Source: a virus. Taken from it: 45,403 bases of DNA. The translations under genes were made by a program, and so were the position numbers. Numbering within the stretch: the first letter of the stretch is position 1; the number at the start of each line of letters is the position of its first letter. Shown here in pieces: positions 5,495-31,606 of this stretch. A model generated the notes under the pieces. That model did no database searches and was not told where the DNA came from. It saw only the letters and a program-made list of their open reading frames with translations. The stretch lies in the IMG/VR virus record IMGVR_UViG_3300029258_002861, positions 1 through 45,403 of that record. One strand, given 5' to 3'.

Positions 5495-6385
5495 ATGGTA
5501 GCGACAGCGTTCCACGAACTGGCGGGCTCGGGCGCCTCGCATCATTCGATCGATCAAGCCAACTCGGCGACCCGATACTTCCTTTGCAAATGGTCGGATC
5601 GTACCACCTTCATCGAAGAACTGGCCACGTTGCAGCATCCGGAGTGGGGACCGGAGTGCGCCATCAACAGCATAGCTGTCGAGCCGTTTTCCCCGCAGCA
5701 GCCGCCCTCTGTCGTGGTCAACGATCCCACCACCGATGATGTCTCCTACCTTCAGAATGCAGAATTCAACTGCCTGATCACGGCACAGTACAACACGGAT
5801 TTCTCTTTGGCGCCGTGGCCTTGCGACATCGACAAGCCGACGATCCCGGCAGGCACGGAACTGGTGATGCGCACGCGGGCCTCCTCGCAAGTGATTCGGA
5901 TCCCGCCGCGCAAGTTTCTTTCGGCCGACAATCCGAACAAAAATCCGGCGGGGTATGTCCCCGAGCCGGACGGTCAAGAGGGGCGGATCATTCTCCCCAC
6001 CACCGAGTTCCAACTCCAGTGGTATTACGTCGACGAACCGCCGATCGCGACGTGGGAAGAGGATTACGTCGGCCGGGTCAACGAGTCGACCTTTCTGGGC
6101 GCCGAAGCCGAAACCCTGCTCTTTGTCGGTTTTGACATTGAACCTTCGACCCAGTTCCTGATCAGCGATCCGTTCTGTTTCACGGTAACTTGCCATTTCC
6201 GCAAGCGGCGGATCGTGGACGGTTCGGACATCTACGGCTGGAACCATGAGTTCGAACTCCAGGGCTGGACCCGCGTGCAAATGCGGGACGGCAACAATTC
6301 TGCGGTGGACCGGTATCAAAAAGTAGATTTTGCCGACATGTTCGTGGAGGCGTGCTGTTCCTCATCAAGCTCAAGCGGATCCTAA
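5495..6385 (+). CDS. Tail-tip (distal tail-like) protein with Cys-Ser tail
   Basis: It begins three bases after the tape measure stop, the usual place of the distal tail protein. The 296-aa product is beta-rich with several Trp/Tyr/Phe clusters (FQLQWYYVDEPPIATWEEDY, IYGWNHEFELQGWTRV) and ends in CCSSSSSSGS. No enzymatic motif is visible. I do not recognise a named family; the tail-tip role is from gene order. Confidence 0.5.
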   Translation: MVATAFHELAGSGASHHSIDQANSATRYFLCKWSDRTTFIEELATLQHPEWGPECAINSIAVEPFSPQQPPSVVVNDPTTDDVSYLQNAEFNCLITAQYNTDFSLAPWPCDIDKPTIPAGTELVMRTRASSQVIRIPPRKFLSADNPNKNPAGYVPEPDGQEGRIILPTTEFQLQWYYVDEPPIATWEEDYVGRVNESTFLGAEAETLLFVGFDIEPSTQFLISDPFCFTVTCHFRKRRIVDGSDIYGWNHEFELQGWTRVQMRDGNNSAVDRYQKVDFADMFVEACCSSSSSSGS

Positions 6386-6388
6386 GCG

Positions 6389-7210
6389 ATGCCCTTTCGA
6401 TTGCCTCATCCTCGACCCAGATCGCCGTACACCCCGGCAAGCCAACGCGAAATGGTTCGCGAGATTGAAGCCGCGCGAAACTGGGAAGGCGATGGGCCGG
6501 TCTCCTTCGACACCGATGGGACGGCGGTGCGGTTCGATGTCCATCATCCCCCCAAGATCGCTCTGTTCGAGATCACCGACGAGTGGGAGGCATGCGAGAG
6601 TTGTAGCTCCGGGTCAAGCTCAAGCTCCGGGTCAAGCTCAAGCAGCAGTTCGTCCAGTTCATCCGGCGTCTCGGGCCGCGCTTTCCCAGACGGTTGGTGT
6701 CGGGCGTTGGCGACACCGCTCTATTACTACGACGGGTCGCAGCAATGGGATCAGGAACATGAAGGGGTTGAGCGGTACATCTTTCATCCGGCCGGATATC
6801 CGCCCAACGAACGCGATGACCTGATCCTCGAAAAGATCTTCTTGCCGCGTTTCGCGATCGGCGATTGGGTGTGGTGCATCTTCAACCAACAATCGGGTTG
6901 GTGGGAAATCATTCATGGGTTCGAAGATGAGTGGAGGTTCGAGCTTAAGACCGATTTGGACGTCGATGATAGTGGCGACGTTCCGCAAGGCGGCACGGCG
7001 ACGGCCTACCTGCGACAGGCTTCCACGGGCGCCTGTGAATGGTCGCCTTGCGATGCGATCACGTTCACGGTCTGCGATTCGATGGGCATGTTCGAGGGCA
7101 CGGGGCGCGACTCGGGCGGACTCAACGGCCGGGGCGTCGGTTCCCGGGGCGTCTGCAAGTACTTTGCGGATTCCCAGTCTTGGGAAATCATCCAAATGGA
7201 GTGCCCGTAA
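6389..7210 (+). CDS. Tail-tip protein with internal poly-Ser linker
   Basis: A 273-aa protein with two parts joined by a long Ser/Gly linker at about residues 69-92, preceded by CESC. The N-terminal 65 residues are Pro/Arg rich; the C-terminal part is beta-like and rich in Trp (FAIGDWVWCIFNQQSGWWEI), with several Cys. The linker resembles the C-terminal tails of other proteins here, as if two genes with the preceding tail had fused. Its stop overlaps the next start at 7210. Function unknown; probably virion tip. Confidence 0.5.
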   Translation: MPFRLPHPRPRSPYTPASQREMVREIEAARNWEGDGPVSFDTDGTAVRFDVHHPPKIALFEITDEWEACESCSSGSSSSSGSSSSSSSSSSSGVSGRAFPDGWCRALATPLYYYDGSQQWDQEHEGVERYIFHPAGYPPNERDDLILEKIFLPRFAIGDWVWCIFNQQSGWWEIIHGFEDEWRFELKTDLDVDDSGDVPQGGTATAYLRQASTGACEWSPCDAITFTVCDSMGMFEGTGRDSGGLNGRGVGSRGVCKYFADSQSWEIIQMECP

Positions 7211-8244
7211 TGCCAGGCTGGTGGCCATGCCCGGAATGCTGCGCGCGTCCCTGCGTGATTTTCGAGGATGATTTTGAGCGCGGTGACAGTACCGATCTCG
7301 GTGGCAGTTGGGACGAAAAGGTTGGCGATTCTGAGATTGATGACAACGAGCTATTGATTCCAGCCAGCGGGCTGGTGATCGCCACAAAGAAGCATCCCCT
7401 CAACACGCCCACGTGCCAGGTGACGGCCACGCTGACCAACATGCAGGCGGGCCGGAAATACCGGCTGATCTGCAACTACGACTATGACGACGGCAGCTAT
7501 ATCTTCGCGGAGTACGAGACCACCGGAGCCGGCACGGGCACAATGAAAGTCGGCTCGAACAATGGTTCGGACGACTCGATTCTTGATGAGTATCCGGCCG
7601 GGTTCGTGGTCGATGGCGACCTGGAATTCTCTCTCTGCCGGACGCTGAACGGAATCTGGTGCACGCTGCAAGACGAGCCCAACTGGGTGGGCATTGGGGC
7701 CTGCGTGGGTGACACGGGCGGCCGTTACGTCGGCGTCATGAACGCGAGTGCCAGCGGAGACATCACGGTGGATGACTTCGTGTTTATCGAGCACGATCAC
7801 ACCAACCGGCAGTTGCCGCACTGTGCGTGGTGTCCCTGTGAGGGTGGCGGCGATCCGTGGAGCAAGGTCGGTGTGTGCATTCCAAAGGAGTTGTTTCTTT
7901 TGGTCTTCGCCGGCGAGGACTGTGCCTGCATGGATCAAACGTCCTGCATCTTGACGTTTGACGACGCGACACGCGCGGGGCCTTTCGCATGGAAGGGCAC
8001 GATCGTTGTGCCGGGATGCGAGACCTACAACTTCATTTTCTCGTGTACCAGCGACGGGACAAGCGTTAAGCTGTGTACGGACAAGTGCGAGGACTGGGGC
8101 GACATGTGCACTGAGGGATATTTGGGTGGTGAACCGATCAGTGCGTCTTGGGACCCGCTCGAACTCTGGTTTCACGGCGAAGGGTGCTTGCCCGTCAGCG
8201 TGGAAGACCCGAATTGTACGATGTATTTTCGCGTGACCGAATGA
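7210..8244 (+). CDS. Cys-rich tail-tip protein with LamG-like domain
   Basis: Start ATG 7210 overlaps the preceding TAA. The 344-aa product opens with a Cys cluster (MPGWWPCPECCARPCVIFE), followed by a concanavalin/LamG-like sandwich of about 200 residues (FERGDSTDLGGSWDEKVGD, then DITVDDFVFIEHD), then a second Cys-rich half (CAWCPCEGGG, CACMDQTSC). More than twenty Cys residues point to metal binding or a disulfide-stabilised extracellular particle protein. A carbohydrate-binding tip role is plausible but inferred. Confidence 0.5.
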   Translation: MPGWWPCPECCARPCVIFEDDFERGDSTDLGGSWDEKVGDSEIDDNELLIPASGLVIATKKHPLNTPTCQVTATLTNMQAGRKYRLICNYDYDDGSYIFAEYETTGAGTGTMKVGSNNGSDDSILDEYPAGFVVDGDLEFSLCRTLNGIWCTLQDEPNWVGIGACVGDTGGRYVGVMNASASGDITVDDFVFIEHDHTNRQLPHCAWCPCEGGGDPWSKVGVCIPKELFLLVFAGEDCACMDQTSCILTFDDATRAGPFAWKGTIVVPGCETYNFIFSCTSDGTSVKLCTDKCEDWGDMCTEGYLGGEPISASWDPLELWFHGEGCLPVSVEDPNCTMYFRVTE

Positions 8245-8696
8245 ACTGCGACGACTGCGAACTACCAGAGAGCGGCGAAAAGAGCTACGACTGTCCGCGC
8301 TTGAATTGTCGAATGATCCCCCACGATTGCGAGCTATACCGCACGCGGCCGAACTACCGACGGGCGTGGGACGACGGCCGCGGGCCCGGGCAAGTGTTCC
8401 CGCCGGTCAAGCAAACAGCCCGCCCGAAGCCGGTACCAGCCGGAGGGCCTGGAACGGAACTCAAGAAGTTACTGGCCACGATGCGAGTCAGGTCGAGTGG
8501 CTGCAAGTGTAATCATCGAGCGGCCGAGATGGATCGGCGCGGCGCGGCCTGGTGCCGTGAACATCTCGACCAGATCACGAGCTGGCTCTTAGGCGAAGCG
8601 CGGAGACGAAACTACCCACTCGCGAATCTTTCCCGGCCGGCGGTCAAGGTGTTGATCCGTTGGGCAATTCAACGATCGAAACGGAGGCAAAGCTGA
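8241..8696 (+). CDS. Hypothetical Cys-containing protein, 151 aa
   Basis: ATG 8241 overlaps the upstream stop (ATGA). It carries an N-terminal Cys set (MNCDDCELPESGEKSYDCPR), a Pro-rich middle, then a Cys pair in SGCKCNHRAAEMDRRGAAWC, with a basic helical C-terminus. The Cys pattern suggests one or two small zinc or Fe-S sites. It is the bridge between the tail genes and the glycan island; the next gene's start overlaps its stop (TGATG at 8694-8698). Function unknown. Confidence 0.5.
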   Translation: MNCDDCELPESGEKSYDCPRLNCRMIPHDCELYRTRPNYRRAWDDGRGPGQVFPPVKQTARPKPVPAGGPGTELKKLLATMRVRSSGCKCNHRAAEMDRRGAAWCREHLDQITSWLLGEARRRNYPLANLSRPAVKVLIRWAIQRSKRRQS

Positions 8697-9793
8697 TGCA
8701 AATCTTTCAACTCGGTTACCCCGGGGGAATGGGCGGCGCTAACACGGAGTGCTGGCACACCGTGAAACTTTGGCGGGAGGCCGGCTGGGATGTGACGCTG
8801 ATCCCGACTTGGGGCGAAGATCATGCCTGGCGGGCGAAGCTCGAATCAATCGGAGCGGAGACCATCCAGGTGGAGCGCGTCAAGCCGCAGGACCCGAAGG
8901 CGCCCCGGCGGCCCCGGCTGCATGACGTACCCGGCCTGCCGGGCTCGATTGTGGTGGGGATGTGCAACCGGCACGTTTCCGGCGTGATCGATGAGCTACG
9001 TGCCATCGGCTGCAAAATCGTGTGGGTGAACTGCATGACGTTCATCGACGAACCCGAGCACCGGGCGACGGTCGACAACGGGCCGGCGGATGCGTACATC
9101 TTCCAGTCGGAGTACCAGCGATCGCGATTGGAACCGCGCCTGCGACGATATGGATACCGCCCCGATCAGGGCTTCTTGATCCGAGGCGCTTTTGATTGTG
9201 CGGAGTGGCCCTTCCGACCACGGTCGCACAAGGCCAGCGGGGAGTTTGTGGTGGGGCGATTGTCTCGGCCGGATGCCGACAAGTGGTCCTCGAATCATTG
9301 GGCGATCCTCGCTGGGATCCCGTTCAAGGAACGGCGGGCCCTCTGCATGGGCTGGAATGGGGTCACCGAAAACAAGTGCGGGCGCGCGCCTTCCTGGGCG
9401 GAGTGTCTGCCTCCCCAGGAAATCGACACCCGCGAATTCTTGGCGCGTTGCCACTGCCTGCTGCACGTCAACGGCGGCGCCAAAGAGAACTGGCCGCGGG
9501 TCGGTCTGGAAGCCATGGCCACCGGCGTGCCGGTGATCGCCCAAAACAAGTGGGGCTGGCGGGAAATGATCGATCACAAGCGAACCGGATTTCTGGCCAA
9601 CAATGATGCCGAACTGGCCTACTACGCGGCCGACCTGGCGCATCGCGAAATTCTCCGCTTGAATATCGCGGAGGCCGCCCGAGCGCGTCTCGAGGAGTTG
9701 GCCGAACCCGGCCGCCTGATCAGCGGGTGGCGGCAGGTGTTTGAGTTTTGCCGGGCTCGGGGTGGATACGTCAAACCTGCGATGGTGATCTGA
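8696..9793 (+). CDS. Glycosyltransferase, family 4 type (GT-B)
   Basis: Start ATG 8696, with GGAGG at 8682-8686. The 365-aa product starts with a Gly-rich nucleotide-sugar loop (QLGYPGGMGGANTECWHTV) and has the GT4 C-terminal signature around LLHVNGGAKENWPRVGLEAM followed by ATGVPVIAQNKWGWREMI, i.e. the E-x7-E motif region that binds the sugar nucleotide. It would transfer a sugar to an acceptor in the cytoplasm. First enzyme of the glycan island; TGATG-type overlaps on both sides indicate one transcript. Confidence 0.8.
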   Translation: MQIFQLGYPGGMGGANTECWHTVKLWREAGWDVTLIPTWGEDHAWRAKLESIGAETIQVERVKPQDPKAPRRPRLHDVPGLPGSIVVGMCNRHVSGVIDELRAIGCKIVWVNCMTFIDEPEHRATVDNGPADAYIFQSEYQRSRLEPRLRRYGYRPDQGFLIRGAFDCAEWPFRPRSHKASGEFVVGRLSRPDADKWSSNHWAILAGIPFKERRALCMGWNGVTENKCGRAPSWAECLPPQEIDTREFLARCHCLLHVNGGAKENWPRVGLEAMATGVPVIAQNKWGWREMIDHKRTGFLANNDAELAYYAADLAHREILRLNIAEAARARLEELAEPGRLISGWRQVFEFCRARGGYVKPAMVI

Positions 9794-10635
9794 TGAATCC
9801 CGTCTATCTCGCAATCTGTGCGATCGTGCGGAACGAAGCGCCCTACATCGGGGAGTGGATTGAGTTTCATCGCCTGGTGGGAATCCAGCGATTCTACCTG
9901 GTTGATGACGGATCCACGGACGGCACTGCGGATGAAATCCGCTGGCACGATCGGGAAGATATCGTGCTGCAACGGTATCGCCACGACGATTCATTCCGCT
10001 GCCCCGAGGATGTCCCCTTCCGTGCTACGCATCAGGTGCTGGCCTTCAATCGATTCATCCAAGAACGCAAAGATGAGGCTGTGTGGTGCGCGTTCATCGA
10101 CGTAGATGAATTCTTGTACCACGTCGAAAAGGACGATATCCGCGATCCGCTCTTCGAGGAAATTGAGTCGCGCGGTGCGGCCGGGCTCTTCGTCAATTGG
10201 TTGATCTTCGGTTCCAACGGCCACCGAACCAAGCCGCCGGGTCCCACCATCGCGGCCTACACGAGGCGCGGCCACCTTGGCGCACCAGAGCCCACAGGCC
10301 GGCACGGCAAGCTGATTGCCCGCCTCGATGCGCTGGCCCATTTCGGCGCGTACGGCTCGCATAACGCGACTTTTCGCCAGGGCCATGCGATCAACGAAAC
10401 CGGCAGAGCGGTTCGCGGACCGACCAATCCGGAGCCTTCGGTCAATCGGTGGCGGGTCAATCATTACTACCATCGCTCGTCCGCGGAGGCCCGCGCGCGG
10501 GTTCGGGCGGTGGACAATAACTGTGTTCCCGGCTATGCTAAGACGAGAGCCCGACTGCGGCGCCACGACCTGAACGACGTCGACGATCGCGAGATTCTCA
10601 GATTTCTCCCGCGACTGATGGAGGTTACGGCGTGA
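9793..10635 (+). CDS. Glycosyltransferase, GT2/GT92-like (GT-A)
   Basis: 280 aa. It shows the GT-A start IVRNEAPYIGEWIEFH, the nucleotide-binding VDDGSTDGT at residues 37-45, and the metal-binding FIDVDEFLY at 101-109. This combination (NEAxYIxEWxxxH, DDGSxD, DVDEF) is typical of the GT92 / Glyco_tranf_2_4 group. A late VNHYYHRSSAEA segment also matches family members. Acceptor and donor unknown. Overlaps both neighbours by a few bases. Confidence 0.8.
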   Translation: MNPVYLAICAIVRNEAPYIGEWIEFHRLVGIQRFYLVDDGSTDGTADEIRWHDREDIVLQRYRHDDSFRCPEDVPFRATHQVLAFNRFIQERKDEAVWCAFIDVDEFLYHVEKDDIRDPLFEEIESRGAAGLFVNWLIFGSNGHRTKPPGPTIAAYTRRGHLGAPEPTGRHGKLIARLDALAHFGAYGSHNATFRQGHAINETGRAVRGPTNPEPSVNRWRVNHYYHRSSAEARARVRAVDNNCVPGYAKTRARLRRHDLNDVDDREILRFLPRLMEVTA

Positions 10636-11402
10636 AATACACGCAGTTTCTTTGCTTCGAGGTCGGGCGCGAATGCAACCTGGCCGGCTATCATCAGGAC
10701 TGCCCTTCTGGCACTCTGGATCGCTACGGCAGCCTGGATGTGTCTACGGCGATCACGGACAAGCAGGTCGTCGATTCTGCCGTCGAGGCGTACGCGGCAC
10801 TCGGGTTTGCCGGCAACGTGGCCTGGCATTACTACAATGAGCCCATGCTCCAATGGGATCGGCTCCAGGCGCTGATGGCCGCGATCCGGGAAAAAGTCAC
10901 CTCCGCTCGGTTTACCTTGTGGACCAACGGCACGTTGTTGCACAAAGGCACCGCGGGCCTGGATTTGCTGGATCAAATCTGGGTCACCAACTACCGCGGC
11001 CGGGATTGGAATTGGTTGCACGAGAGGGTCCCCCGGGTCGTTGTCTTCGCGCCCTATCTGGACGAACGACGGCGACCGCTCGAAAAAGACAAGCTGGATT
11101 TCTGCCTCCGTCCCTACAACGAGTTGATCGTCGACAACTACGGCAACGGGCATTTGTGCTGTGCCGATTGGCGGGGGGCCTGCGTCTTGGGAAACATCCG
11201 TGACGCGGATGGTTTTGCGGGCGTGGTGGAACGATTCCAGGCCGCTCGCAACCAGGCTAGTCAACAGCCGATGCCGGACGATGCGCCGAATGTTTGCAGG
11301 AGGTGCCGCATTCGGCAACGCCACATTGCGGACCTCGTTCCCGCCGTTCAGAAGATCACGGAGGAAGACAAGCCATGGATCACAAAGCAGCCAATTCTCT
11401 AG
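10632..11402 (+). CDS. Radical-SAM/SPASM-like protein with altered cluster motif
   Basis: A 256-aa protein resembling SPASM-type radical SAM enzymes: VGRECNLAGYHQDCPSG near the start, TLWTNGTLL in the middle of the barrel, and a SPASM-like Cys region GHLCCADWRGACVLGNIRD followed by CRRCRIRQ. The usual CxxxCxxC that holds the SAM cluster is not present; the spacing from Cys14 to Cys23 is different. It may be a degenerate 'twitch' protein or bind its cluster unusually. Its stop was created inside a 51-bp tandem duplication (11350-11451). Confidence 0.6.
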   Translation: MKYTQFLCFEVGRECNLAGYHQDCPSGTLDRYGSLDVSTAITDKQVVDSAVEAYAALGFAGNVAWHYYNEPMLQWDRLQALMAAIREKVTSARFTLWTNGTLLHKGTAGLDLLDQIWVTNYRGRDWNWLHERVPRVVVFAPYLDERRRPLEKDKLDFCLRPYNELIVDNYGNGHLCCADWRGACVLGNIRDADGFAGVVERFQAARNQASQQPMPDDAPNVCRRCRIRQRHIADLVPAVQKITEEDKPWITKQPIL

Positions 11403-11451
11403 AAGATCACGGAGGAAGACAAGCCATGGATCACAAAGCAGCCAATCCTCT
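11350..11451 (+). repeat. 51-bp tandem duplication carrying RBS and start codon
   Basis: 11350-11400 and 11401-11451 are the same 51 bases with one mismatch. Each copy contains GGAGG and an ATG (11375 and 11426), that is, a complete translation start for the next gene. The upstream gene stops at the junction (TAG 11400-11402). Confidence 0.9.
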
Positions 11452-12151
11452 CGGAGTAGTCTTCGTTTCCTGGCAGATCCCCGAGCATCGGTTGCGGGAT
11501 CATTTCGCGTGGAACGAGCGCCTCTATCGGCCGGGCGGCGTGCGCGTCTTCGCCGTGACCGATCGCGAATACGAAGTCCCCGACTACGCCCGGTGCGTGA
11601 TCTTTCCCAAAACGCGCCTGCCGATATTTGGCGGCCGATATCGATTCGCGCTGACCCGGACCAAGAACGCCGGCATCCGCGCGGCGATCGCGGCGGGCTG
11701 TTCCCCGATTATCTGTTCCGATGTGGATATCGCTTTCGAGCCGGCGGCGTGGATGGCGGCCCTGGCGACCACGGACCGGACGGCCGCAGTGCCGCTCTAT
11801 CGTATGAGCTTGTCATCGCAATGGGCAGAGCGGGAAAACTCGTACGAAGAGGCCCCCCTGGCAGAAGGCACGATTACGATGACGGCCCATAACTGGGAGC
11901 GGATCCAGTACTGCGAGCGCCAGTGGGGTTACGGGGGGGATGATGGAACAATCATCGATCGCATTGCCCATGCGGATCCGCCGATTCGCATCACGCGGGT
12001 TGGCCACGTCTACCACATGGCCCACGTCGACGGCGCCTGCCAAAAGGAATTTTGCGGACGGACGGATCATTGGAATCGTGACAACGGGCTGAACCCCGAA
12101 AACTTCAGGCGCAACGCTAGGCACGGCGGGCGGGGAAAGGTGGTATTGTAA
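11426..12151 (+). CDS. Glycosyltransferase (galactosyltransferase-like, GT-A)
   Basis: Start could be ATG 11375 (first copy of the duplication, overlapping the upstream gene) or ATG 11426 (second copy, 24 bases past the upstream stop); I prefer 11426, 241 aa. Motifs: TKNAGIRAAIAAGCSPIICS followed by DVDIAFEP, the metal-binding D-x-D; then RQWGYGGDDGTIIDRI, like the 'W(G)xEDxD' acceptor-side motif of GT7-type galactosyltransferases. It probably adds a hexose to the same glycan as its neighbours. Confidence 0.7.
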   Translation: MDHKAANPLGVVFVSWQIPEHRLRDHFAWNERLYRPGGVRVFAVTDREYEVPDYARCVIFPKTRLPIFGGRYRFALTRTKNAGIRAAIAAGCSPIICSDVDIAFEPAAWMAALATTDRTAAVPLYRMSLSSQWAERENSYEEAPLAEGTITMTAHNWERIQYCERQWGYGGDDGTIIDRIAHADPPIRITRVGHVYHMAHVDGACQKEFCGRTDHWNRDNGLNPENFRRNARHGGRGKVVL

Positions 12152-12153
12152 CG

Positions 12154-12804
12154 ATGCGGGCCACACATCAGCCGAAGTCGCGGCGAATGAAAATATGCGT
12201 AGCGGGCAACGGGCCCACGGCCAAGGGCCTCGGGAAAGAGATTGACGCCTGTGATTGTGTGGTTCGCACCAAAGCATGGTGGCACTACGGCGCGGAACAC
12301 GCCGGCCAGAGGGTGGATGCTGTTGCCTGGTTCGGCACCCAGCAAGAAGAATGGTTCGCGCTCAACAGCCGAGCGGGCGTGCCCCAATGCGAGCACTGGT
12401 TGAGTTGGTGTCCGCGACAATTCCAAGAATGTCCGCCTGGGTTTGCGAGAGGCGAACTCTTCTTTCGCTACATCACCTTCGATTTGCCGGTGGCGCAGTT
12501 GGGCAATCACCAATGGCTGCGCCTCTGCAATCATCTTGGCCGGCACCCCTCGACCGGAATCGTGGCGGTGATGATGGCGCTTGCGAGGTGGCCGACTTGT
12601 GAGTTGGTGTTGGCGGGTTTCGACGCGACCATACCCGGCGAGCCAACCTACCACGACGCTCGACACCCGGTGTGCGAGGATCTGCATGCCCACGATATGA
12701 TTGCGGAGAAAAAGGCGTTGGCTCAAATTGCGGAAGGATCGTGGTTGGGGGAGCCCTGCAAGGCAAAGCTGACCTGGCTGCATCAGCCGAAGATCGAGGG
12801 ATGA
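12154..12804 (+). CDS. GT29-like sialyltransferase
   Basis: 216 aa. The segment KICVAGNGPTAKGLGKEID (residues 13-31) followed by ACDCVVRTKAW has the form of the sialyl motif L of family GT29 (VxGNGxxxxxxxGxxIDxxDxVxR). HPSTGIVAVMMALAR (131-145) and LVLAGFD match motif S, and HAHDMIAEKKAL near 178-189 matches the 'HDxxxE' motif VS. The enzyme should transfer a sialic-acid-type sugar from its CMP donor; the donor can be made by NeuA and NeuB encoded downstream. GT29 is mainly eukaryotic, so this is notable. A start at ATG 12187 is also possible. Confidence 0.75.
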   Translation: MRATHQPKSRRMKICVAGNGPTAKGLGKEIDACDCVVRTKAWWHYGAEHAGQRVDAVAWFGTQQEEWFALNSRAGVPQCEHWLSWCPRQFQECPPGFARGELFFRYITFDLPVAQLGNHQWLRLCNHLGRHPSTGIVAVMMALARWPTCELVLAGFDATIPGEPTYHDARHPVCEDLHAHDMIAEKKALAQIAEGSWLGEPCKAKLTWLHQPKIEG

Positions 12805-14210
12805 CAATGGCGAGAATCCTGCTGGTCGTCTACGACAACGATTCCCAGATCGGCTTCTTTCCGATGGGCACGGCGGCCCTGGCCGCCTATTGTCGCCAAT
12901 GCGGAATCCAGGTGGACATCTACAGCCAGGACATCCACCACCACCCCGAGACGCACCTCACGGAGCATTTGGATGCCGCCCATTACGGCGTTGTTGGGTT
13001 GAGTTTTATCGGGGCTTACTACCCGTATCGCAAAGCCAAGACAATCGCCACGGCCATCCATGCCGCAAAAGACCGGCCCTTTTTCGTGATTGGCGGCCAC
13101 GGCCCAACCCCCGAGCCCGAGTACTTCTTGCGATTGCTCGGCGCGGACGCGGTGGTGATGGGGGAGGGCGAGCAAACTTTCGTCGAACTGATCTTCGCCC
13201 TGGCGGCGCAATCCAGTCTGGAAGAGATCGCCGGGCTTGCTTACCGCGTCGATGACCGGGTCGTGATCAACCCGAGACGAAAGCCGATCAACGAGATCGA
13301 CGATTTGCCGATACCGGCGTACGACAAATTTCCGATGGAAGTCTACCGACTTCGCCGCGACGCGGCCCATGTCCCCCGCATCGGCAACCGGTTTTCGATC
13401 CAGATGCTCTCCGGGCGGGGCTGCAAATTCAACTGCAATTTCTGCTACCACATCGATCCCGGCATGAGGCTCCGTTCACCCAGGGCAATCGTTGACGAGA
13501 TGAACCACCTTTACGACCGCTGGCGAATCCAGCATTTCATGTTCTACGACGATCTGCTGATGGAGTCGGAGGCCCGCACCATGGAACTCTGCGAGGCGTT
13601 CATTCGCTCGGGGCCGCCCGATATGACCTTCACTTGCCAAGGCCGGCTCAACTACGCGGTGCCTGAGGTCATGGGGCTGATGAGTCGGGCCGGCTGCGCC
13701 TACATCTACTACGGCGTCGAGTCGTTCAACGATGATGTCCTGCGGACGATGAGAAAGGCCCTGACCACGGACCAGATTGTGTGGGGAGTGGAAAATACCC
13801 GCAAGGCCGGAATACGTTTCAGCCCGAATATGATCTTCGGCAACATCGGGGAGACACGAGAGCACTTGGAAAACAGCGTTCGATTCCTGCTCTTGCACGC
13901 CGACTGCGCCCAGCTTCGGGCGATCAAGCCGGTGACGCCCTACCCGGGATCGCCACTCTATGACTATGCGATCGAAAAGGGCTTGCTTGAGGGGCCGGCG
14001 GATTTCTACGAACGCAAGCACATCAACACGGATCTGCTTTCAGTCAACTTCACGCCATTGCCTGATGAGGAATTCTATCTGGCGTTGCATCAGGCCAACG
14101 AACGGATCGTTGGCAGCTACTGCTTGCAACTTCGTCGCGTTTACAGTCAACAGTTGCGGCGGCTGTATTGCGACAAGGACCCATCATTTCGAGGATTCAG
14201 ACACGTATGA
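12801..14210 (+). CDS. B12-binding-domain radical SAM enzyme
   Basis: Start ATG 12801 overlaps the upstream stop. The 469-aa product has an N-terminal cobalamin-binding-like Rossmann domain (HYGVVGLSFIGAYYPYRKA, FFVIGGHGPTPEPEYFL, VVMGEGEQTFVEL), then the radical SAM core with CKFNCNFCYH (CxxxCxxC at residues 208-215), and YYGVESFNDDVLRTM, NMIFGNIGETREH and VTPYPGSPLYDYA, all typical of the B12-rSAM family (methylation, ring contraction and similar reactions at unreactive carbons). In a glycan locus it may modify a sugar. Substrate unknown. Confidence 0.85.
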   Translation: MTMARILLVVYDNDSQIGFFPMGTAALAAYCRQCGIQVDIYSQDIHHHPETHLTEHLDAAHYGVVGLSFIGAYYPYRKAKTIATAIHAAKDRPFFVIGGHGPTPEPEYFLRLLGADAVVMGEGEQTFVELIFALAAQSSLEEIAGLAYRVDDRVVINPRRKPINEIDDLPIPAYDKFPMEVYRLRRDAAHVPRIGNRFSIQMLSGRGCKFNCNFCYHIDPGMRLRSPRAIVDEMNHLYDRWRIQHFMFYDDLLMESEARTMELCEAFIRSGPPDMTFTCQGRLNYAVPEVMGLMSRAGCAYIYYGVESFNDDVLRTMRKALTTDQIVWGVENTRKAGIRFSPNMIFGNIGETREHLENSVRFLLLHADCAQLRAIKPVTPYPGSPLYDYAIEKGLLEGPADFYERKHINTDLLSVNFTPLPDEEFYLALHQANERIVGSYCLQLRRVYSQQLRRLYCDKDPSFRGFRHV

Positions 14211-14878
14211 ATGAGCTTATCGAGCGATACCGAAAGCTGTACAGCGGCGTGATCTACGACGCGCTGGTATTTGACTTGCACTATCGGCCCGCCTCAGTAG
14301 TCATGCCTGGTCTAGTATCCCGGCTGGCGGGTCCGCGGGAGCCCCTAATCGGCCCCGCGTTCACCTGTCGAGGGCGGCGCGTGCGAGCGGGAGATGACGT
14401 AGGGAAGCTGGAATCGATCCGGCTTGACATATTCTCGCAACTCCCGAGTGGCTCGGTGATGGTGATTGACACGGAGGGAGACGAGGGCGTTGCCCATTTC
14501 GGCGACGTGTCGGCCTTGATTGCCCATACGGCCGGGGTGGCTGGCATTGTGATCGACGGATACACCCGGGACATCGATGCTATCGATGAGGCGGGCGTGC
14601 CGTTATTTGCGCGTGGCGCCCGACCGGTCGACGCTTACGGCAGGTGGGCCCTCGTGGAAAAAGGGAAGGCGCTCACGTTGAGTGAGGCGGGGGTGTCGAT
14701 ATTCCCGGACGATTTGGTGTTTGCCGACGGCGACGGCGTTCTGATCATTCCGCACGACCGGGTTGCTGATGTGCTTGACCCAGCGGAACGCCGGGCGGCC
14801 AACGAGGATGCTATTCGGGCTGCTATTAGGGCGGGCGAACCAATCAAGGACATCTATCGGAGGCTCGGGCGATGGTAG
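14207..14878 (+). CDS. RraA / HMG-aldolase family protein
   Basis: Start ATG 14207 overlaps the upstream TGA. The 223-aa product matches the RraA-like fold: YSGVIYDALVF at the start, a substrate-loop GPAFTCRGRR, GSVMVIDTEGDEGVAHFGDV, then HTAGVAGIVIDGYTRDIDAI, with the Gly-x-x-R-D type active site (G..TRD). Family members are class II pyruvate aldolases (4-hydroxy-4-methyl-2-oxoglutarate type) or RNase E inhibitors. Next to NeuB, an aldolase acting on pyruvate-derived sugar acids, or making pyruvate, would fit. The specific reaction is not known. Confidence 0.8.
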   Translation: MNELIERYRKLYSGVIYDALVFDLHYRPASVVMPGLVSRLAGPREPLIGPAFTCRGRRVRAGDDVGKLESIRLDIFSQLPSGSVMVIDTEGDEGVAHFGDVSALIAHTAGVAGIVIDGYTRDIDAIDEAGVPLFARGARPVDAYGRWALVEKGKALTLSEAGVSIFPDDLVFADGDGVLIIPHDRVADVLDPAERRAANEDAIRAAIRAGEPIKDIYRRLGRW

Positions 14879-15804
14879 AGCTTGTGGCGGAGGTAACCAC
14901 CAACCACATGGGCAACCTCAACGTCTTGTTGGCGATGGTCGACGCGGCTGCCAGGGCCGGGGCCGATTCGATCAAGATGCAAAAGAAGGACGTGGAGACG
15001 TTCTATTCTCGCGAAAAGCTGGACGCCCCATACCTCAGTCCCTACGGCGCGACGTATCGCGAGTATCGCAAGATGTTCGAGTTCAATGCGGTGGATTGGC
15101 AGCGCTTCGACAAGCGTTGTCGGGAGCGTGGCCTGCCCTGGTTCGGCACCGGGCAAGACATTCCTTCCCTGGCGTTTTTGGTCGCCCAATCAGAGGACGG
15201 GCTGCAACGGTACAAGGTCTCTTCGTCGAACGCACGCAACCAAGAGTACCTCCAGGCGATGGCCCACATGCTGAACGCTGATTCGGAAATCGTGCTCTCT
15301 GTCGGCGGCTCGACGCTGAAGGATATCGCAACGGCTCTTGGTGTCCTTCGGAAGTTCAAGCGGATTTGGCTCTTGCATTGTGTGGCTCAGTATCCCTGCC
15401 CCGTGGCGGACTTGCGCTTGGGCAATATCCAGGAGCTTGGCCGACAGTTTGGCACGGACCGGATCCGCGTCGGCTACTCCGGCCATGAGGAAGGTTGGGA
15501 ACCGTCGTTGGTGGCGGCGCGGCTTGGCGCCGAGATGATCGAACGGCACTTTTGCCTGTCTCGCCATTCGTTCGTGCATCACATCGAATGCAGCTTGACG
15601 CCGGATGAATTTGCGGCAATGCGAAAGGCGATTGAGAGGAAAGACCCTTGTCCCGTGCTACCGCACGAGGCGTACCGCGTTGAATTTGGAATGTCCGCGG
15701 AGGAAAGCATTTTCTTGGAGCGGCAAACTTATGCAAACGATCGACTTGGCCTTGAATCCCGATTGGCGGATCGTCGCGTTCGTGCATGCCAAGGGGCACA
15801 GTGA
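14872..15804 (+). CDS. neuB: N-acetylneuraminate synthase-like (NeuB family)
   Basis: 310 aa; ATG 14872 follows GGAGG at 14859-14863. The barrel shows VAEVTTNHMGNLNVLLAM (EIGxNHxG-type catalytic start), AGADSIKMQKKD, then YKVSSSNARNQEYLQAM, LSVGGSTLKDI, LLHCVAQYPCP and VGYSGHEEGW, all typical of NeuB/SpsE-type synthases that condense phosphoenolpyruvate with an N-acyl hexosamine into a nonulosonic acid. The C-terminal SAF (antifreeze-like) domain of classical NeuB appears to be missing; the last 25 residues overlap the next gene in another frame, so the end may be shortened. Confidence 0.85.
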   Translation: MVELVAEVTTNHMGNLNVLLAMVDAAARAGADSIKMQKKDVETFYSREKLDAPYLSPYGATYREYRKMFEFNAVDWQRFDKRCRERGLPWFGTGQDIPSLAFLVAQSEDGLQRYKVSSSNARNQEYLQAMAHMLNADSEIVLSVGGSTLKDIATALGVLRKFKRIWLLHCVAQYPCPVADLRLGNIQELGRQFGTDRIRVGYSGHEEGWEPSLVAARLGAEMIERHFCLSRHSFVHHIECSLTPDEFAAMRKAIERKDPCPVLPHEAYRVEFGMSAEESIFLERQTYANDRLGLESRLADRRVRACQGAQ

Positions 15805-16444
15805 ACGTCTGCCTCACAAGAACTTGAGGATCCTGGGAGGCGTGCCCTTGGTGTGCCATGCCATCCGCAACGCCTTGCAGGCGCGGCGAATAGACGCCGT
15901 GGTGATCGATTCGGAGGATCACGAGATCCTTGCTGTTGGGGAAGCGGCGGGCGCCATCCCGCTGGCAAGGCCCTTGCACCTGGCGGATAACAACACGACT
16001 GGAGATGATCTGGCGTATTGGCAAGCGCAGCAGCTACCGCAAGCCCACACGATCATCCAGGCCGTTCCAACGTCGCCATTCATTTCGCCGCAGTCGTACG
16101 ATTCCGCGATTGAGCTGCTCCGCAGGAACAAACTAGATGCGGTGGTTGGCACGCGAACCGAGAGTCTCTATACGTGGCGCTATGGCAGGCCGGACTACTT
16201 GGTGGGCGAGCGAACGCCGAACAGCCAGGACCTTCGGCCCACCACCTACGAGACGACGGGGCTCTACGTGATGCGGCGGGCGTTCGTCCTCACGACCCGT
16301 CGCCGGATCAATCCGAACAACTGCGCGGCGTATGCCCTGTCGCGGATTGAGGCAATCGACATCAACACCTTGCGCGATTTGGACTTCGCACAGTTGGTCT
16401 GGCGGGGCCTCCAATCGCAGCCTAACAACGATCGGAAATACTGA
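15731..16444 (+). CDS. neuA: CMP-sialate synthetase-like (NeuA family)
   Basis: Start ATG 15731 with GGAG 15716-15719; 237 aa, overlapping neuB by 74 bases. VAFVHAKGHSERLPHKNLRI near residues 15-34 is the CTP-binding PARGxSKRxxxKN loop in a slightly changed form; further PLVCHAIRNAL, VVIDSEDHEILAV, IIQAVPTSPFI and TTYETTGLYVMRR match the cytidylyltransferase family. It should activate the nonulosonic acid made by NeuB as a CMP-sugar for the GT29-like transferase upstream. Confidence 0.85.
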   Translation: MQTIDLALNPDWRIVAFVHAKGHSERLPHKNLRILGGVPLVCHAIRNALQARRIDAVVIDSEDHEILAVGEAAGAIPLARPLHLADNNTTGDDLAYWQAQQLPQAHTIIQAVPTSPFISPQSYDSAIELLRRNKLDAVVGTRTESLYTWRYGRPDYLVGERTPNSQDLRPTTYETTGLYVMRRAFVLTTRRRINPNNCAAYALSRIEAIDINTLRDLDFAQLVWRGLQSQPNNDRKY

Positions 16445-17022
16445 TGCTAAAGATCCTTGGAGTCGGTCTCCCGCGAACCGGTACCCAGTCGCTTTCGGAC
16501 GCCCTCGAAATTCTGGGGCTCAACTCAATCCATCATGCGCCGGAGCGATTGGATCCGTGGCCGGACGCCGCGACCGAAGCAACGCCCAATTTCCGCGTCT
16601 ACAGTGATGTTGACGCCGTCATCGATGCGCCGGCGTCGTACTTCTACCGCGAACTCGGCGACGCTTACCCCGGTCTGCGCTACATCCTGACCGTCCGCGA
16701 CAAGGATACGTGGTGGCGGAGCGTTCGCACTCACACTTTGCGGATCTATGCAGAAACGCGGTACGCGAGGACCGAATACACCGACCGGCTTCACGCAATG
16801 TTGTTCGGTTCGGGGGTCCCGAACAAATTCCTGTGGCAGCGCAATTTCTGCCTCTGGAATGAGCGGGTTGCGCATGAGCTTGCCGGGCCGCCGTTGCTGG
16901 TCATGGACATCACGGCCGGAGACGGGTGGCGGCTTCTCTGCGATTTCTTGCGGCTGCCGATTCCCGATTGCCCGTTTCCCCACGCCAACGCCACAGTACT
17001 CCCATGCGAGGCAGAATCTTGA
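16444..17022 (+). CDS. Sulfotransferase (PAPS-dependent)
   Basis: 192 aa; start overlaps the upstream TGA. GVGLPRTGTQSLSDAL at residues 6-21 is the 5'-phosphosulfate loop that binds PAPS (PRTGTxSL), as in the Sulfotransfer_4 group; YILTVRDKDTWWRS near the middle is the 3'-phosphate-binding region (RDP/RD..S). It probably puts sulfate on a sugar of the island's glycan. Its last 19 bases overlap the next gene. Confidence 0.8.
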   Translation: MLKILGVGLPRTGTQSLSDALEILGLNSIHHAPERLDPWPDAATEATPNFRVYSDVDAVIDAPASYFYRELGDAYPGLRYILTVRDKDTWWRSVRTHTLRIYAETRYARTEYTDRLHAMLFGSGVPNKFLWQRNFCLWNERVAHELAGPPLLVMDITAGDGWRLLCDFLRLPIPDCPFPHANATVLPCEAES

Positions 17023-17660
17023 TCGGCGCATTGTCGGCGCATGCGTATTCCGACCGTCGAGGAAACTGCCTGGCCACTTGGATCCCGGCAGCCGCGCAAC
17101 TCGGCATGGAGTCGTTCTTTCTTCTCGGCGATCCATCTTTGAGCCATCCCAACCAGATCGGCCGTGAACTCTGGTTGCCGGTCCCGGATGATTACGACCA
17201 CCTGCCGCAAAAGACGCGGGCATTTTGCCAATCGGCGCTGAACCGATCGGGTTGGGACTACCTCTTCAAATGCGACGATGACACGGCGATCGCCGTGAGC
17301 AGGCTCGCCGCGTACGAGGCGCACGGCCGCGACTACATCGGCGCCGAGTGGAGGGCGGGTGTGAACTACGGCAGCGGTGGAGCCGGTTACCTGCTGTCCC
17401 GACGTGCGGCTGAGGTGGTGGCCGAGAAATTGACGTTCCGGATCGGGGCAGAGGATCTGCTCGTGGGAACAGTCTTGCGGGAGGCAGGAATCCGGCTCTC
17501 GATTGAGCGGCGATTCGTTCCCTGGGGAAACATGGATCATCGCCCCCAGCCGGGCAACGATCTGATCACGGCGCATGCCGTGGGGCGGGATGTGTTCGAG
17601 GCGGTCAATCGGGAGATCGACCGGTTGTCGATTGCGAGCGTCGGCTCTTCGTCCGGTTGA
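17004..17660 (+). CDS. Glycosyltransferase, GT31 galactosyltransferase-like
   Basis: Start ATG 17004 lies inside the end of the sulfotransferase gene; 218 aa. ILIGALSAHAYSDRRGNCLA at the start and DYLFKCDDDTAIAV (metal-binding DDD at 91-93) followed by YGSGGAGYLLSRRAAE are the core motifs of beta-1,3-galactosyltransferases (GT31, 'E/K..DDD' and 'GgGyvlS'). It closes the glycan island, converges with a minus-strand gene, and ends in a Ser-rich tail (VGSSSG) like several virion proteins. Confidence 0.75.
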   Translation: MRGRILIGALSAHAYSDRRGNCLATWIPAAAQLGMESFFLLGDPSLSHPNQIGRELWLPVPDDYDHLPQKTRAFCQSALNRSGWDYLFKCDDDTAIAVSRLAAYEAHGRDYIGAEWRAGVNYGSGGAGYLLSRRAAEVVAEKLTFRIGAEDLLVGTVLREAGIRLSIERRFVPWGNMDHRPQPGNDLITAHAVGRDVFEAVNREIDRLSIASVGSSSG

Positions 17661-19215: not shown

Positions 19216-20112
19216 ATGCAGAACCCCACCCTCCTGGGGTACTGCACGGAGGTGTACCTTCCCACCAGAGTCGGACTGAAACCGAGTTCCGCCCAACAGT
19301 TGAGATTAGCCGCCAAGCTCTACAATCTGCCGCTCACACGGTTGCACGAGCGGGAATTGGCGGGAGTGTTGGCGGAATACTGCCGCTCACACTCGCCCGC
19401 CACGACCAACAGCAAGCGCCGGGCGATTCTTACGCTCTGGGATGCGGCGGCTGGCGACGGATTGTGTCGCAAGCCAGACCGTCGCCGTGTCCCCAAGGCG
19501 CGCGAATTTCGCCGGCTGCCCCTCGCGTGGACAGTCTCCGAGGTGGAACGCCTGGTTTCGCATTGCCGAGCCCTGCCGGGAATGGTCGCCCAGATCCCAC
19601 GATCTCGCTGGTGGACCAGCCTGGTACTGGCCGTGTGGGACAGCGGCGAGCGAATTTCCGCCACGCTTTCCACGGCAACGGCCGATTGCAATCTGGCGGA
19701 ACGTTTCATGCTCGTTCGGGCCGAAAATCAGAAATGCGGGATAGACCGCCTCTTCTGGCTGTCCGATGCGACCGTGGCGGCGATCGCCGGACACTACGAC
19801 ACAGGCCGACAGCTTGTCTGGCCGTGGCCTCATTGTCGCCGGTATCTGTTCGTCCAGTTCCGATCGATCATTGGCGGCGCGGGACTGACTGCCGAGAAGT
19901 CGATGGGCCTCTTTCACAAACTGAGGCGGTCGAACATCTCGTACACCGCCCGCAACGGTGGCCTCGACCTGGCCAGGCAACAGGCCGGTCATTCGTCGGC
20001 ATCGACGACTTTGCGACACTACGTCGACCCCCGGATTGCCCACGAGCGATCGGCGGTAGATGTGTTGCCCCCGTTGCGGGCAGACCGGGACGTGCAACTG
20101 CGGCTCTTTTGA
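19216..20112 (+). CDS. int: Tyrosine recombinase / integrase
   Basis: 298 aa; ATG 19216 after AGAGAGG. N-terminal SAM-like core-binding part (about 1-100) and catalytic domain with the expected residues: R146 (WDSGERISA), H234-x-x-R237 (HKLRR), H259 (QQAGH) and Tyr269 (LRHYVDP). It is shorter than many integrases and lacks an obvious arm-binding domain. It would integrate the phage at a tRNA gene through the attP-like fragment at 18390-18427. Upstream: promoter P2 and a 290-bp leader. Confidence 0.9.
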   Translation: MQNPTLLGYCTEVYLPTRVGLKPSSAQQLRLAAKLYNLPLTRLHERELAGVLAEYCRSHSPATTNSKRRAILTLWDAAAGDGLCRKPDRRRVPKAREFRRLPLAWTVSEVERLVSHCRALPGMVAQIPRSRWWTSLVLAVWDSGERISATLSTATADCNLAERFMLVRAENQKCGIDRLFWLSDATVAAIAGHYDTGRQLVWPWPHCRRYLFVQFRSIIGGAGLTAEKSMGLFHKLRRSNISYTARNGGLDLARQQAGHSSASTTLRHYVDPRIAHERSAVDVLPPLRADRDVQLRLF

Positions 20113-29508: not shown

Positions 29509-29808
29509 GGTGGAGAGCAGCGTGAAACGACAGGTGTATCCAAGTTGCGCCGTACAACGGCCAGAACTCACCCGGGTGGAGAGCAGCGTGAAACGACAGG
29601 TGTATCCAAGGACAACGCGAGAGAAGGTATGGCGGCGATCGGTGGAGAGCAGCGTGAAACGACAGGTGTATCCAAGGACAACGCGAGAGAAGGTATGGCG
29701 GCGATCGGTGGAGAGCAGCGTGAAACGACAGGTGTATCCAAGAACTTGCTCAGTCGCGCTCGAATCATTTTTGGTGGAGAAGGCGGCCAAGTGACAGGTG
29801 TATGCAAC
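29509..29808 (+). CRISPR. CRISPR array 1: five 36-bp repeats, four 30-bp spacers
   Basis: Repeats at 29509-29544, 29575-29610, 29641-29676 and 29707-29742 are identical; the fifth, 29773-29808, is diverged in its 5' half and ends in GCAAC instead of CCAAG, as terminal repeats do. Every spacer is exactly 30 bp: 29545-29574, 29611-29640, 29677-29706 and 29743-29772; spacers 2 and 3 are the same, so one unit was duplicated. The conserved 3' part is GACAGGTGTATCCAAG. The array starts 14 bases after the effector stop and shares no cas1/cas2. The 66-bp period equals 22 codons, so a frame stays open through it, but unrelated spacers argue against a coding repeat. Confidence 0.85.
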
Positions 29809-29991
29809 TTGTGCCACAGCCCGGTCAAGCCGGGCCGAAAGTACTGTCCCGACTGCGCGGCGGTCGGGTTGATTCCGTTTCACAAGCGACTGAAAGGAAC
29901 CTTAAATGAGTTCGAACAAGAAAAACCAAAAGACTTCCTGGAAGGATTTGCTGCTCAAGGCCAAGCAACTCGACCGCCGAGTGATGGCTAA
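29791..29991 (+). CDS. Possible small zinc-ribbon protein starting in the last repeat
   Basis: A GTG at 29791 inside repeat 5, with GGAGAAGG of the same repeat as ribosome site, opens a 66-residue frame: VCNLCHSPVKPGRKYCPDCA gives two CxxC pairs, then a basic segment and a Pro/Gln-rich end that overlaps the next gene by 86 bases. The same frame is open upstream through the whole array. The zinc ribbon looks real; the start and the end are uncertain. Confidence 0.4.
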   Translation: MTGVCNLCHSPVKPGRKYCPDCAAVGLIPFHKRLKGTLNEFEQEKPKDFLEGFAAQGQATRPPSDG

Positions 29992-30445
29992 CCTCTACGA
30001 ACGGACCTCCTTGCTGGTGCGGATCTTCGATGACGCCGAGTTTCGCGCCGACGTGGGTGCCAGAGACGACCACCAGGCGGCCGATTGGCTGGACGCCGAG
30101 ATGAATGCCGACGTGGGCCTCAACTTCCTGCAACTGCGTGCTATCTTCCTCGAGTTTCCCAAGCAACATGCCTGGCAAGACACCACGCTCCGCGAATTGT
30201 ATGCGCAGCTCCGGCCGGCCGAACCGGCCGACAAGCCGCCCAAGAAGCGGACGGCCGTCAAGCTGGCCGATTTCAAGCGGGCGTGCGAAGATCGCGACAA
30301 CTACCGCGCGCAGGTCGAGTCGCTCAACGAGCAGGTTGCCTCGCTGAAGAAAGAGCGCGACGAACACCGGCGGGAGATCGCGCATCTCCTGGGCCGGATC
30401 GAAGAACTGGAGAAGTCGAGCACAGCCGCCCTTGCGGCGGCGTAG
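29906..30445 (+). CDS. Hypothetical coiled-coil protein, 179 aa
   Basis: ATG 29906 after AAGGAA. Lys-rich start (MSSNKKNQKTSWKDLLLKAK), a helical middle, a basic Pro/Lys linker, then a long coiled coil (DNYRAQVESLNEQVASLKKE followed by RDEHRREIAHLLGRIEELEK). No enzymatic motif. It lies between the CRISPR array and the Dam-type gene. A link to the CRISPR module cannot be shown. Confidence 0.55.
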   Translation: MSSNKKNQKTSWKDLLLKAKQLDRRVMANLYERTSLLVRIFDDAEFRADVGARDDHQAADWLDAEMNADVGLNFLQLRAIFLEFPKQHAWQDTTLRELYAQLRPAEPADKPPKKRTAVKLADFKRACEDRDNYRAQVESLNEQVASLKKERDEHRREIAHLLGRIEELEKSSTAALAAA

Positions 30446-30463
30446 ATTGGAGAGGGAAGATGA

Positions 30464-31387
30464 ATGACTGAGGTAATTCAGATTACGAAGCCGCCCTTTC
30501 CTTGGTTCGGCGGGAAGTCGCGAGTGGCCGATATCGTGTCGCAGCGGTTCGGCGACATGCCGAATTACGTTGAACCGTTTTTCGGCAGCGGGGCCGTACT
30601 GTTTCGTCGGCCCCACCCGCCCGGAACAGAGACGGTCAACGACCTGGACTGTTACGTAGCGAATTTCTGGCGGGCGACGAAACATGATCCCGATGCGGTT
30701 GCCGACGCGGCGGACTGGCCGGTGAACGAGGCGGATCTTAATGCCCGTCACAAGTGGTTGCTGAACCAAGCCGAATTCCGCGAGCGGATGCGAACCGATC
30801 CGGATTACTACGACGCGAAAATTGCGGGCTGGTGGGTGTGGGGGCAGTGTCAATGGATTGCGGGGGGGTGGTGCGATTCGCGATGCTACGATGGAGAATC
30901 ACGGCCTTCGCAGCAACTGCCTCACTTGAGCAATGTCGGCCAAGGCATTCATCGGCCCAGTCAGATCATCCATAAATACATCGCGAGCATATCCGCACGA
31001 TTACGGCGCGTCCGCGTCTGTTGCGGGGACTGGAGCCGCGTGTGTGGACCAACGCCAACCGTGCATCGAGGGCTGACGGGTATGTTTCTGGACCCGCCGT
31101 ACGGCGAAAGTCGGGCCGATGGCTGTTACGCCACTGATAGCACCGAGGTACACAAGGCGGTTCATGACTGGGCTCTGGAGCATGGTGCCGATAAGATGCT
31201 GCGAATTGCTCTCTGCGGCTACGAAGGGGAATTCGATCCGCCATCCGGATGGGAAACGGTCGAGTGGAAGGCGCATGGCGGCTACGGGAACCGAGGTAAC
31301 GGTCAGGCGCGGGTCAACGCGGGCAGGGAACGGATTTGGTTTTCGCCTTTGTGTCTGCGTCCAACAAGCCAAGCGATGTTGTTTTGA
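30464..31387 (+). CDS. Dam-like adenine-N6 DNA methyltransferase (D12 class)
   Basis: 307 aa. PPFPWFGGKSRVADIV (residues 10-25) is the SAM-binding motif I of the D12 family, YVEPFFGSGAVLF follows, and GMFLDPPYGES (DPPY about 209-212) is the catalytic motif IV. The order F.GGK before DPPY is that of Dam/DpnM enzymes. Orphan enzyme; with the cytosine methyltransferase at 24.6 kb it probably protects phage DNA against host restriction or marks it for regulation. Confidence 0.85.
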   Translation: MTEVIQITKPPFPWFGGKSRVADIVSQRFGDMPNYVEPFFGSGAVLFRRPHPPGTETVNDLDCYVANFWRATKHDPDAVADAADWPVNEADLNARHKWLLNQAEFRERMRTDPDYYDAKIAGWWVWGQCQWIAGGWCDSRCYDGESRPSQQLPHLSNVGQGIHRPSQIIHKYIASISARLRRVRVCCGDWSRVCGPTPTVHRGLTGMFLDPPYGESRADGCYATDSTEVHKAVHDWALEHGADKMLRIALCGYEGEFDPPSGWETVEWKAHGGYGNRGNGQARVNAGRERIWFSPLCLRPTSQAMLF

Positions 31388-31582
31388 CTGTCCATTTGAC
31401 TGTCCACAATCCAGACCTTGGATTCGGGCCGGCCCGCTATTTTGTGCCGATCTGTATTCGGCATAAACACGGTTACTATGGCGGCCCTGTAGGGTATCAG
31501 GAAATGAGCGAGGAGTTGGCGAAACAGCAAGTGGTAATTGTACTAGACTCGACGGACAACTATTCGACAATATCGAATAGTT
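31383..31582 (+). promoter_or_regulatory. Regulatory gap with tandem TTTGACTGTCCA and a perfect inverted repeat
   Basis: The 219-bp gap after the Dam gene starts with two tandem copies of TTTGACTGTCCA (31383-31406), each containing a -35-like TTGACT, and ends with AACTATTCGA (31558-31567) and TCGAATAGTT (31573-31582), a perfect ten-bp inverted repeat with five bases between. It lies 12 bases before the ribosome site of the next gene, a typical operator position. No convincing gene is seen in the gap. Confidence 0.5.
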
Positions 31583-31606
31583 CAAACCCTGAAGGAGATG
31601 AGTATC

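Follow-up and report, generated by a model that had tools for sequence, protein, structure and literature searches.

What does a phage make when it carries genes that resemble those for sialic acid? The question is raised by IMG/VR record IMGVR_UViG_3300029258_002861, a viral sequence of 45,403 bp that we analysed over its full length (the window), and in which a cassette of sugar-enzyme genes occupies positions 8696-17660. A first-pass annotation had read this cassette as a path from hexosamine to a transferred sialic acid, giving a sulfated and sialylated glycan. We show here that three of its genes, encoding RraA-like, NeuB-like and NeuA-like proteins, form a recurrent unit of their own with a dedicated NeuB subfamily, and the altered synthase of this subfamily suggests that the acidic sugar produced is not ordinary sialic acid. 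In the window the unit consists of the following genes:

14207-14878, plus strand: RraA-like protein of the class II pyruvate-aldolase family (PF03737, 1.7e-23; alignment to 3noj)
14872-15804, plus strand: NeuB-like synthase, barrel only (PF03102, E 1.7e-50; structure model)
15731-16444, plus strand: NeuA/PseF-like synthetase of cytidine monophosphate (CMP)-sugars (PF02348, E 7.6e-15; PseF, 1.1e-25; NeuA structures)

Our scans covered viral contigs and one genome per species, and counting this phage they recovered 22 members of the NeuB subfamily, nine in phage contigs and 13 in bacterial genomes (Alphaproteobacteria, including Pelagibacteraceae and Eilatimonas, Prochlorococcus, Gastranaerophilales, Oscillospiraceae, Myxococcota and others). 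Of these 22 close relatives 18 had an RraA-like gene next to NeuB, whereas among the 51 more distant NeuB loci that the scans also recovered the number was 0 (Fisher P 1.3e-13, with relatedness ignored). A NeuA-like gene was adjacent in every uncut member. A histidine phosphatase was the fourth gene in 12 of the 13 bacterial members, the thirteenth being cut directly after NeuB, and among the phages it was present in L005 only. In the cultured bacterium Eilatimonas milleporae it lies at L032:11600-12253. The subfamily is rare, since it occurred in a sample of 385 alphaproteobacterial genomes only in the one used as centre; cultured phages contained only two distant NeuB matches. In the NeuB tree this phage grouped with phage contig L004 and with L080 (support 94/97), and the tree did not resolve how often phages acquired the gene. 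We found no account of the RraA-NeuB-NeuA unit, or of neuA and neuB in phages, in the open-licence literature, and a description elsewhere is possible.

The RraA-like protein, which the first-pass annotation had missed as the constant partner of NeuB, retains D-X20-R-D (D100, R121 and D122 in this phage); motifs of this kind have been tied to the binding of metal and to activity as a class II pyruvate aldolase (PMC5065237). The R-D pair was invariant in 14 relatives, and the first Asp was replaced by Glu in L004 only. No RraA gene stood beside the more distant NeuBs of an Escherichia coli plasmid and of Azospirillum (36-38% identity), and the Azospirillum gene (L098, 36%) adjoined LegB, LegC and NeuC. 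The plasmid locus (L097; NZ_CP145673.1, IncX1/IncY) is another unstudied sugar-acid locus, in which a NeuB-family gene encoding a protein of 514 aa (38% identity over 241 aa) is preceded by a gene of the inositol monophosphatase family and by large glycosyltransferases.

The NeuB-like protein falls within the NeuB superfamily (PF03102, 172.2 bits against a gathering threshold of 22.1) and under the equivalog cut-off for sialic acid synthases (TIGR03569, 166.1 against 399.65 bits), and together with its close relatives (45-59% identity) it forms one subfamily. When 20 subfamily members were aligned with 25 distant NeuBs, the residues for phosphoenolpyruvate (PEP) and metal were found to be kept (E7, N11, K35, Q37, K115, S118, S143, Y174, S203, H205 and H226). 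Neisseria Lys53, Gln55, Thr110 and Lys129 correspond to the conserved K35, Q37, T93 (Ser in L031) and K115, and Ser154, Ser213, His215 and His236 to the conserved S143, S203, H205 and H226. The acceptor side is altered: in 20 of 20 members Phe112 of the Neisseria enzyme is replaced by Gln (Gln95) and Asp247 by His (His237), and within the aligned sequences this Gln/His pair defines the subfamily. Its members also lack the C-terminal antifreeze-like domain, the carrier of Arg314, which is the sole active-site residue contributed by that domain and whose replacement (R314A) inactivates the Neisseria enzyme (PMC6795526); the tail past the barrel measures 40-82 aa, while most of the full-length NeuBs used for comparison have 80-86 aa or more. 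Because five of the distant NeuBs (L038, L039, L040, L084 and L085) also lack this domain, the barrel-only architecture does not define the subfamily by itself. The structure was predicted with confidence (pLDDT 87.7) as one barrel whose last 20-25 residues are disordered, and it is closest to NeuB/SpsE (Z ~30) and also to PseI, with DAHP and KDO8P synthases at Z ~19-22. The NeuA-like protein matches its family (PF02348, 55.7 bits against a cut-off of 22.6); its best named match, PseF (TIGR03584), is better than that to KdsB and falls far short of the cut-off (90.6 against 205.7 bits).

These results bear directly on the sialic acid of the first-pass annotation, and more broadly on a true nonulosonic-acid route (N-acetylneuraminic acid (Neu5Ac), legionaminic acid or pseudaminic acid) that would start from a hexosamine precursor supplied by the host. 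We regard such a route as unlikely. It would account for the NeuB and NeuA families, the GT29 fold described below, the PseF match and the structural neighbours NeuB, SpsE and PseI, but it fits poorly with the lost antifreeze-like domain and its Arg314 and with the two acceptor-side replacements, and the constant RraA partner belongs to no known route to these sugars. Family profile scans of the cassette moreover found no hexosamine-forming or epimerising enzyme, no NeuC/epimerase, no N-acetyltransferase, and no LegB/C or PseB/C/H/G, a neighbourhood of the kind that the Azospirillum locus does show; the proposed start from hexosamine was not supported. Plain synthesis of Neu5Ac, legionaminic or pseudaminic acid was downgraded on the acceptor-site residues and the partner genes.

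A known ulosonic acid outside this group, such as Kdo, Kdn or Kdh, made by an unusual set of enzymes, is in our view less likely still. The single barrel recalls KDO8P and DAHP synthases, the bacterial phosphatase partner recalls the Kdo and Kdn routes, and plant GT29 proteins have been proposed as Kdo/Kdh transferases (PMC5811610). Nevertheless, in sequence and structure the synthase resembles NeuB/SpsE more closely than KdsA (Z 30 against 19), no orthologue of KdsD, KdsC or KdsB is present, and the NeuA-like protein fits PseF better than KdsB.

The transferase that would use the activated sugar lies upstream of the unit:

12154-12804, plus strand: GT29 transferase (PF00777, E 2.9e-7; sialylmotif-like strings; fold matches)

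Here the first-pass assignment to a GT29-like sialyltransferase family was borne out. The Pfam score was 30.6 bits against a gathering threshold of 23, over residues 119-193 and hence part of the profile, and strings resembling sialylmotifs L (GNGPTAKGLGKEIDACDCVVR), S (PSTGIVAVMMA) and VS (HDMIAE, HX4E) were present. In a fold search the top 25 matches were all mammalian GT29 sialyltransferases (among them ST8SiaIII, ST6GalNAc2, ST6Gal1 and ST3Gal), followed by a sharp drop. Since the confidence of the model is only moderate (pLDDT 60, pTM 0.68), we take this search as support and not as proof; the model has an MptE-like phage protein among its fold matches as well, at rank 12. Relatives were found only with an alignment and none by single-sequence scan, and there was no sequence match in the PDB and none in cultured phages. 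A GT29 gene lies beside the unit in this phage, L004 and L080, a weak GT29-like one does so in L081, and MptE/Maf-like genes stand next to it in L002, L003, L005 and some bacteria. The GT29 protein of the window is presumed to use a CMP-activated ulosonic acid.

The remaining genes complete the cassette, which follows directly on the last tail-side gene:

8241-8696, plus strand: Cys-rich protein, end of the tail genes (ATG at 8241)
8696-9793, plus strand: GT4-type glycosyltransferase (PF00534, E 2.8e-10, above cut-off)
9790-10635, plus strand: GT2/GT92-like glycosyltransferase with a DVD motif (PF13704, E 3.5e-16, and PF01697, E 1.8e-9, above cut-off)
10632-11402, plus strand: BtrN-like SPASM protein (SPASM PF13186, 3.8e-5; BtrN profile, E 1.4e-10)
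11294-12151, plus strand: GT7C-like glycosyltransferase with a DVD motif (PF02709, E 1.1e-3, under cut-off)
12798-14210, plus strand: canonical B12-binding radical S-adenosylmethionine (SAM) enzyme, CKFNCNFC (PF04055, 1.1e-19; PF02310, 2.4e-16)
16444-17022, plus strand: sulfotransferase, GLPRTGTQSL resembling the loop that binds 3'-phosphoadenosine-5'-phosphosulfate (Sulfotransfer_4, PF17784, 7.1e-38)
16926-17660, plus strand: Galactosyl_T-like (GT31-type) transferase with a DDD motif, start uncertain (PF01762, E 3.1e-6, 27.6 bits against a cut-off of 23)

From 8696 to 17660 there are eleven plus-strand genes, adjacent ones sharing 1-109 nt or separated by 2 nt, and the start of the GT4 gene overlaps the stop of the 8241-8696 gene (TGATG). 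The layout as a single operon and all the enzyme families named in the first-pass annotation were recovered, in an interval that agrees with that annotation to the base; the families were matched with Pfam and NCBIfam. The GT7C-like protein has relatives at 38-46% in many phage contigs, and the start of its gene is uncertain because a 51-bp tandem duplication (11350-11451, 98% matches) lies at its 5' end, at the junction with the SPASM gene. Hydropathy prediction gave no convincing membrane segment in any of the island proteins.

The first-pass reading of radical SAM enzymes survived only in part. It holds for the 12798-14210 enzyme, which has both CX3CX2C and a B12-binding domain and is possibly a C-methylase, every NCBIfam match being under cut-off. 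It fails for the SPASM protein, in which CX5HX2C, formed by Cys15, His21 and Cys24, is found and the CX3CX2C of radical SAM enzymes is absent. Across the BtrN-like SPASM family (this phage, L004, L095 and L100-L130) C-X5-H-X2-3-C-P replaces CX3CX2C in 32 of 32 aligned sequences, and these proteins have either an unusual set of cluster ligands or a retired radical SAM fold. The family comprises 32 viral-contig loci and had no match among 50,697 cultured phage records; its gene often adjoins, or is fused with, GT7C.

Comparable cassettes in other phages differ in content. In L004 the set stands between terminase and genes for portal, protease and capsid-like proteins, and comprises SPASM, GT7C-like, sulfotransferase, GT29, RraA, NeuB and NeuA, with no match to the GT4, GT2/GT92, B12 radical SAM or Galactosyl_T genes. 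L095 has terminase genes, then SPASM and GT7C fused in one open reading frame (ORF), then GT29. L107 lacks the NeuB unit and has, in this order, a homologue of the 7039-8244 gene, a 656-aa ORF and a sulfotransferase; that ORF (L107:5521-7491) joins an 8241-8696-like protein, SPASM and a GT7C-like domain in one chain, a fusion which suggests that the three act together. The 8241-8696 protein had no match in cultured phages. Glycan cassettes of varying content thus occupy this site, and among them the sugar-acid unit is one insert.

Is the cassette truly part of a phage genome? The record carries a 144-bp direct terminal repeat at its ends, and a second contig (L006, 23.1 kb) matches it at 99.9% identity from 29620 to 45403 and then, across the repeat, as far as 7496, so that the genome is closed at 45.3 kb. 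It encodes terminase, portal, Mu F-like, capsid and tape measure proteins and an integrase, in agreement with the phage setting given in the first-pass annotation, and the cassette lies between the tail genes and a region with a helix-turn-helix (HTH) gene and the integrase. It seems to us very improbable that the cassette came from a host and was joined to a viral contig by misassembly, or that it is a decayed remnant. The near-identical contig does end before the cassette, which is known from one assembly, but GC content and third-position GC resemble those of the other genes, all eleven frames are open with their catalytic motifs kept, and the same set of genes is found within L004. Host contamination was rejected on the genome closure and these phage relatives. 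The relatives found for the terminase and the tape measure protein indicate many unrelated hosts, and the integrase had no sequence match in the PDB. A tRNA-Arg(gcg) is predicted at 19916-19987 on the minus strand, antisense within the integrase ORF, and is either an attachment-site remnant or a false positive; a perfect 66-bp tandem repeat of 2.5 copies occupies 29575-29742, and L006 starts inside it.

Where would the glycan go? Since the enzymes look soluble, no gene for a lipid-carrier transferase, flippase or polymerase was seen in the cassette by family profile scans, and the cassette comes directly after the tail genes, a virion (tail) protein is the likeliest target. An alteration of the envelope of lysogens or infected cells, by receptor masking or superinfection exclusion, is a reasonable alternative to which we give somewhat less than an even chance. 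The integrase and the HTH repressor-like gene directly 3' of the cassette place it at a common location of lysogenic-conversion genes, and in bacteria the unit must act for glycans of the cell; soluble glycosyltransferases may still extend lipid-linked glycans of the host. On the other hand, the cassette overlaps tail genes on the plus strand, and in L107 the cassette site comes after the same tail-side gene, there a homologue of 7039-8244; the 7039-8244 gene itself has a weak family match to a minor tail protein. Two proteins encoded in the interval from the tape measure gene to the cassette have long Ser/Gly-rich runs beside Cys: that of 5495-6385 ends in CCSSSSSSGS, and that of 6389-7210 has a run of more than 20 Ser/Gly. 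Our guess is that these Ser-rich proteins of 5495-7210 are candidate glycan acceptors.

Taking these results together, we consider it probable that this is a late phage cassette in which RraA, NeuB and NeuA make a CMP-ulosonate, probably not that of Neu5Ac, which GT29 transfers, most likely to a virion protein. The RraA-like aldolase would make or prepare an aldose acceptor, to which the NeuB-like barrel would add PEP, yielding a 3-deoxy-2-ulosonic acid that may be phosphorylated; a histidine phosphatase, which in this case would be that of the host, could act next, and the NeuA-like enzyme would make the CMP-sugar. The GT4, GT2, GT7C-like and GT31-like enzymes may build a short glycan onto which GT29 would transfer the activated sugar, and the sulfotransferase, perhaps with the B12 radical SAM enzyme, may decorate it, in a stepwise glycosylation of a cytoplasmic protein such as a virion tail protein. 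Of the sulfated, sialylated glycan first proposed we retain the broad picture, an acidic 2-ulosonic sugar activated with CMP, transferred by GT29 and probably sulfated; we do not retain its identity as sialic acid. Several observations count against our proposal: RraA is absent beside NeuB in L026, L029 and L030 (L083 is cut), this phage lacks the histidine phosphatase of the bacterial copies, replacements at acceptor-contacting positions alone are no proof of a new acceptor, the alignment of Asp247 depends on a divergent loop, and late expression and a virion target are read solely from gene order.

More tentatively, RraA, NeuB and NeuA, with the phosphatase in bacteria, may constitute an undescribed route to a new CMP-3-deoxy-2-ulosonic acid, scattered over distantly related bacteria and carried by phages, in which GT29 or Maf-like enzymes bring the sugar to the virion, a proposal that we rate as possible and no higher. 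If true, phages carry, beyond glycosyltransferases, the entire route that supplies an unusual acidic sugar in activated form, and the RraA-NeuB-NeuA-phosphatase unit that pipelines would annotate as sialic acid synthesis makes something else, a caution against scoring such metagenome genes as sialic acid producers. The four proteins are a compact set suited to reconstitution in vitro.

Compared with known systems, the cassette resembles the bacterial nonulosonic-acid routes (NeuC-NeuB-NeuA and those for legionaminic and pseudaminic acid, with GT29, GT42 or Maf transferases) in its PEP-dependent synthase of the NeuB superfamily, CMP activation and a transferase of GT29-related fold, and differs from them in the absence of the antifreeze-like domain, the altered acceptor residues, the RraA-like partner, the lack of hexosamine enzymes and its location in a phage. 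With the Kdo and Kdn pathways (KdsD-KdsA-KdsC-KdsB) it shares a single-domain synthase, CMP activation and, in the bacterial copies, a phosphatase, whereas its synthase is NeuB/SpsE-like and not KdsA-like, an RraA-like protein replaces the isomerase, and the phosphatase is of the histidine family and not HAD. The class II pyruvate aldolases HMG/CHA aldolase and LigK (PDB 3noj) have the same fold family and D-X20-R-D motif as the RraA-like protein, whose gene stands in a context of sugar-acid synthesis and not of aromatic catabolism. Mycobacteriophages encode putative capsid-modifying glycosyltransferases (PMC11256854), likewise among the virion genes of a tailed phage, and to this the present cassette adds a whole supply route for a CMP-sugar-acid, a GT29 and a sulfotransferase. 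Phage proteins of GT29 fold have been recorded before (BFVD, uncultured Caudovirales phage); here the linkage of such a gene to a sugar-acid route is examined. The individual parts are known, unlike their combination and the sugar that it implies.

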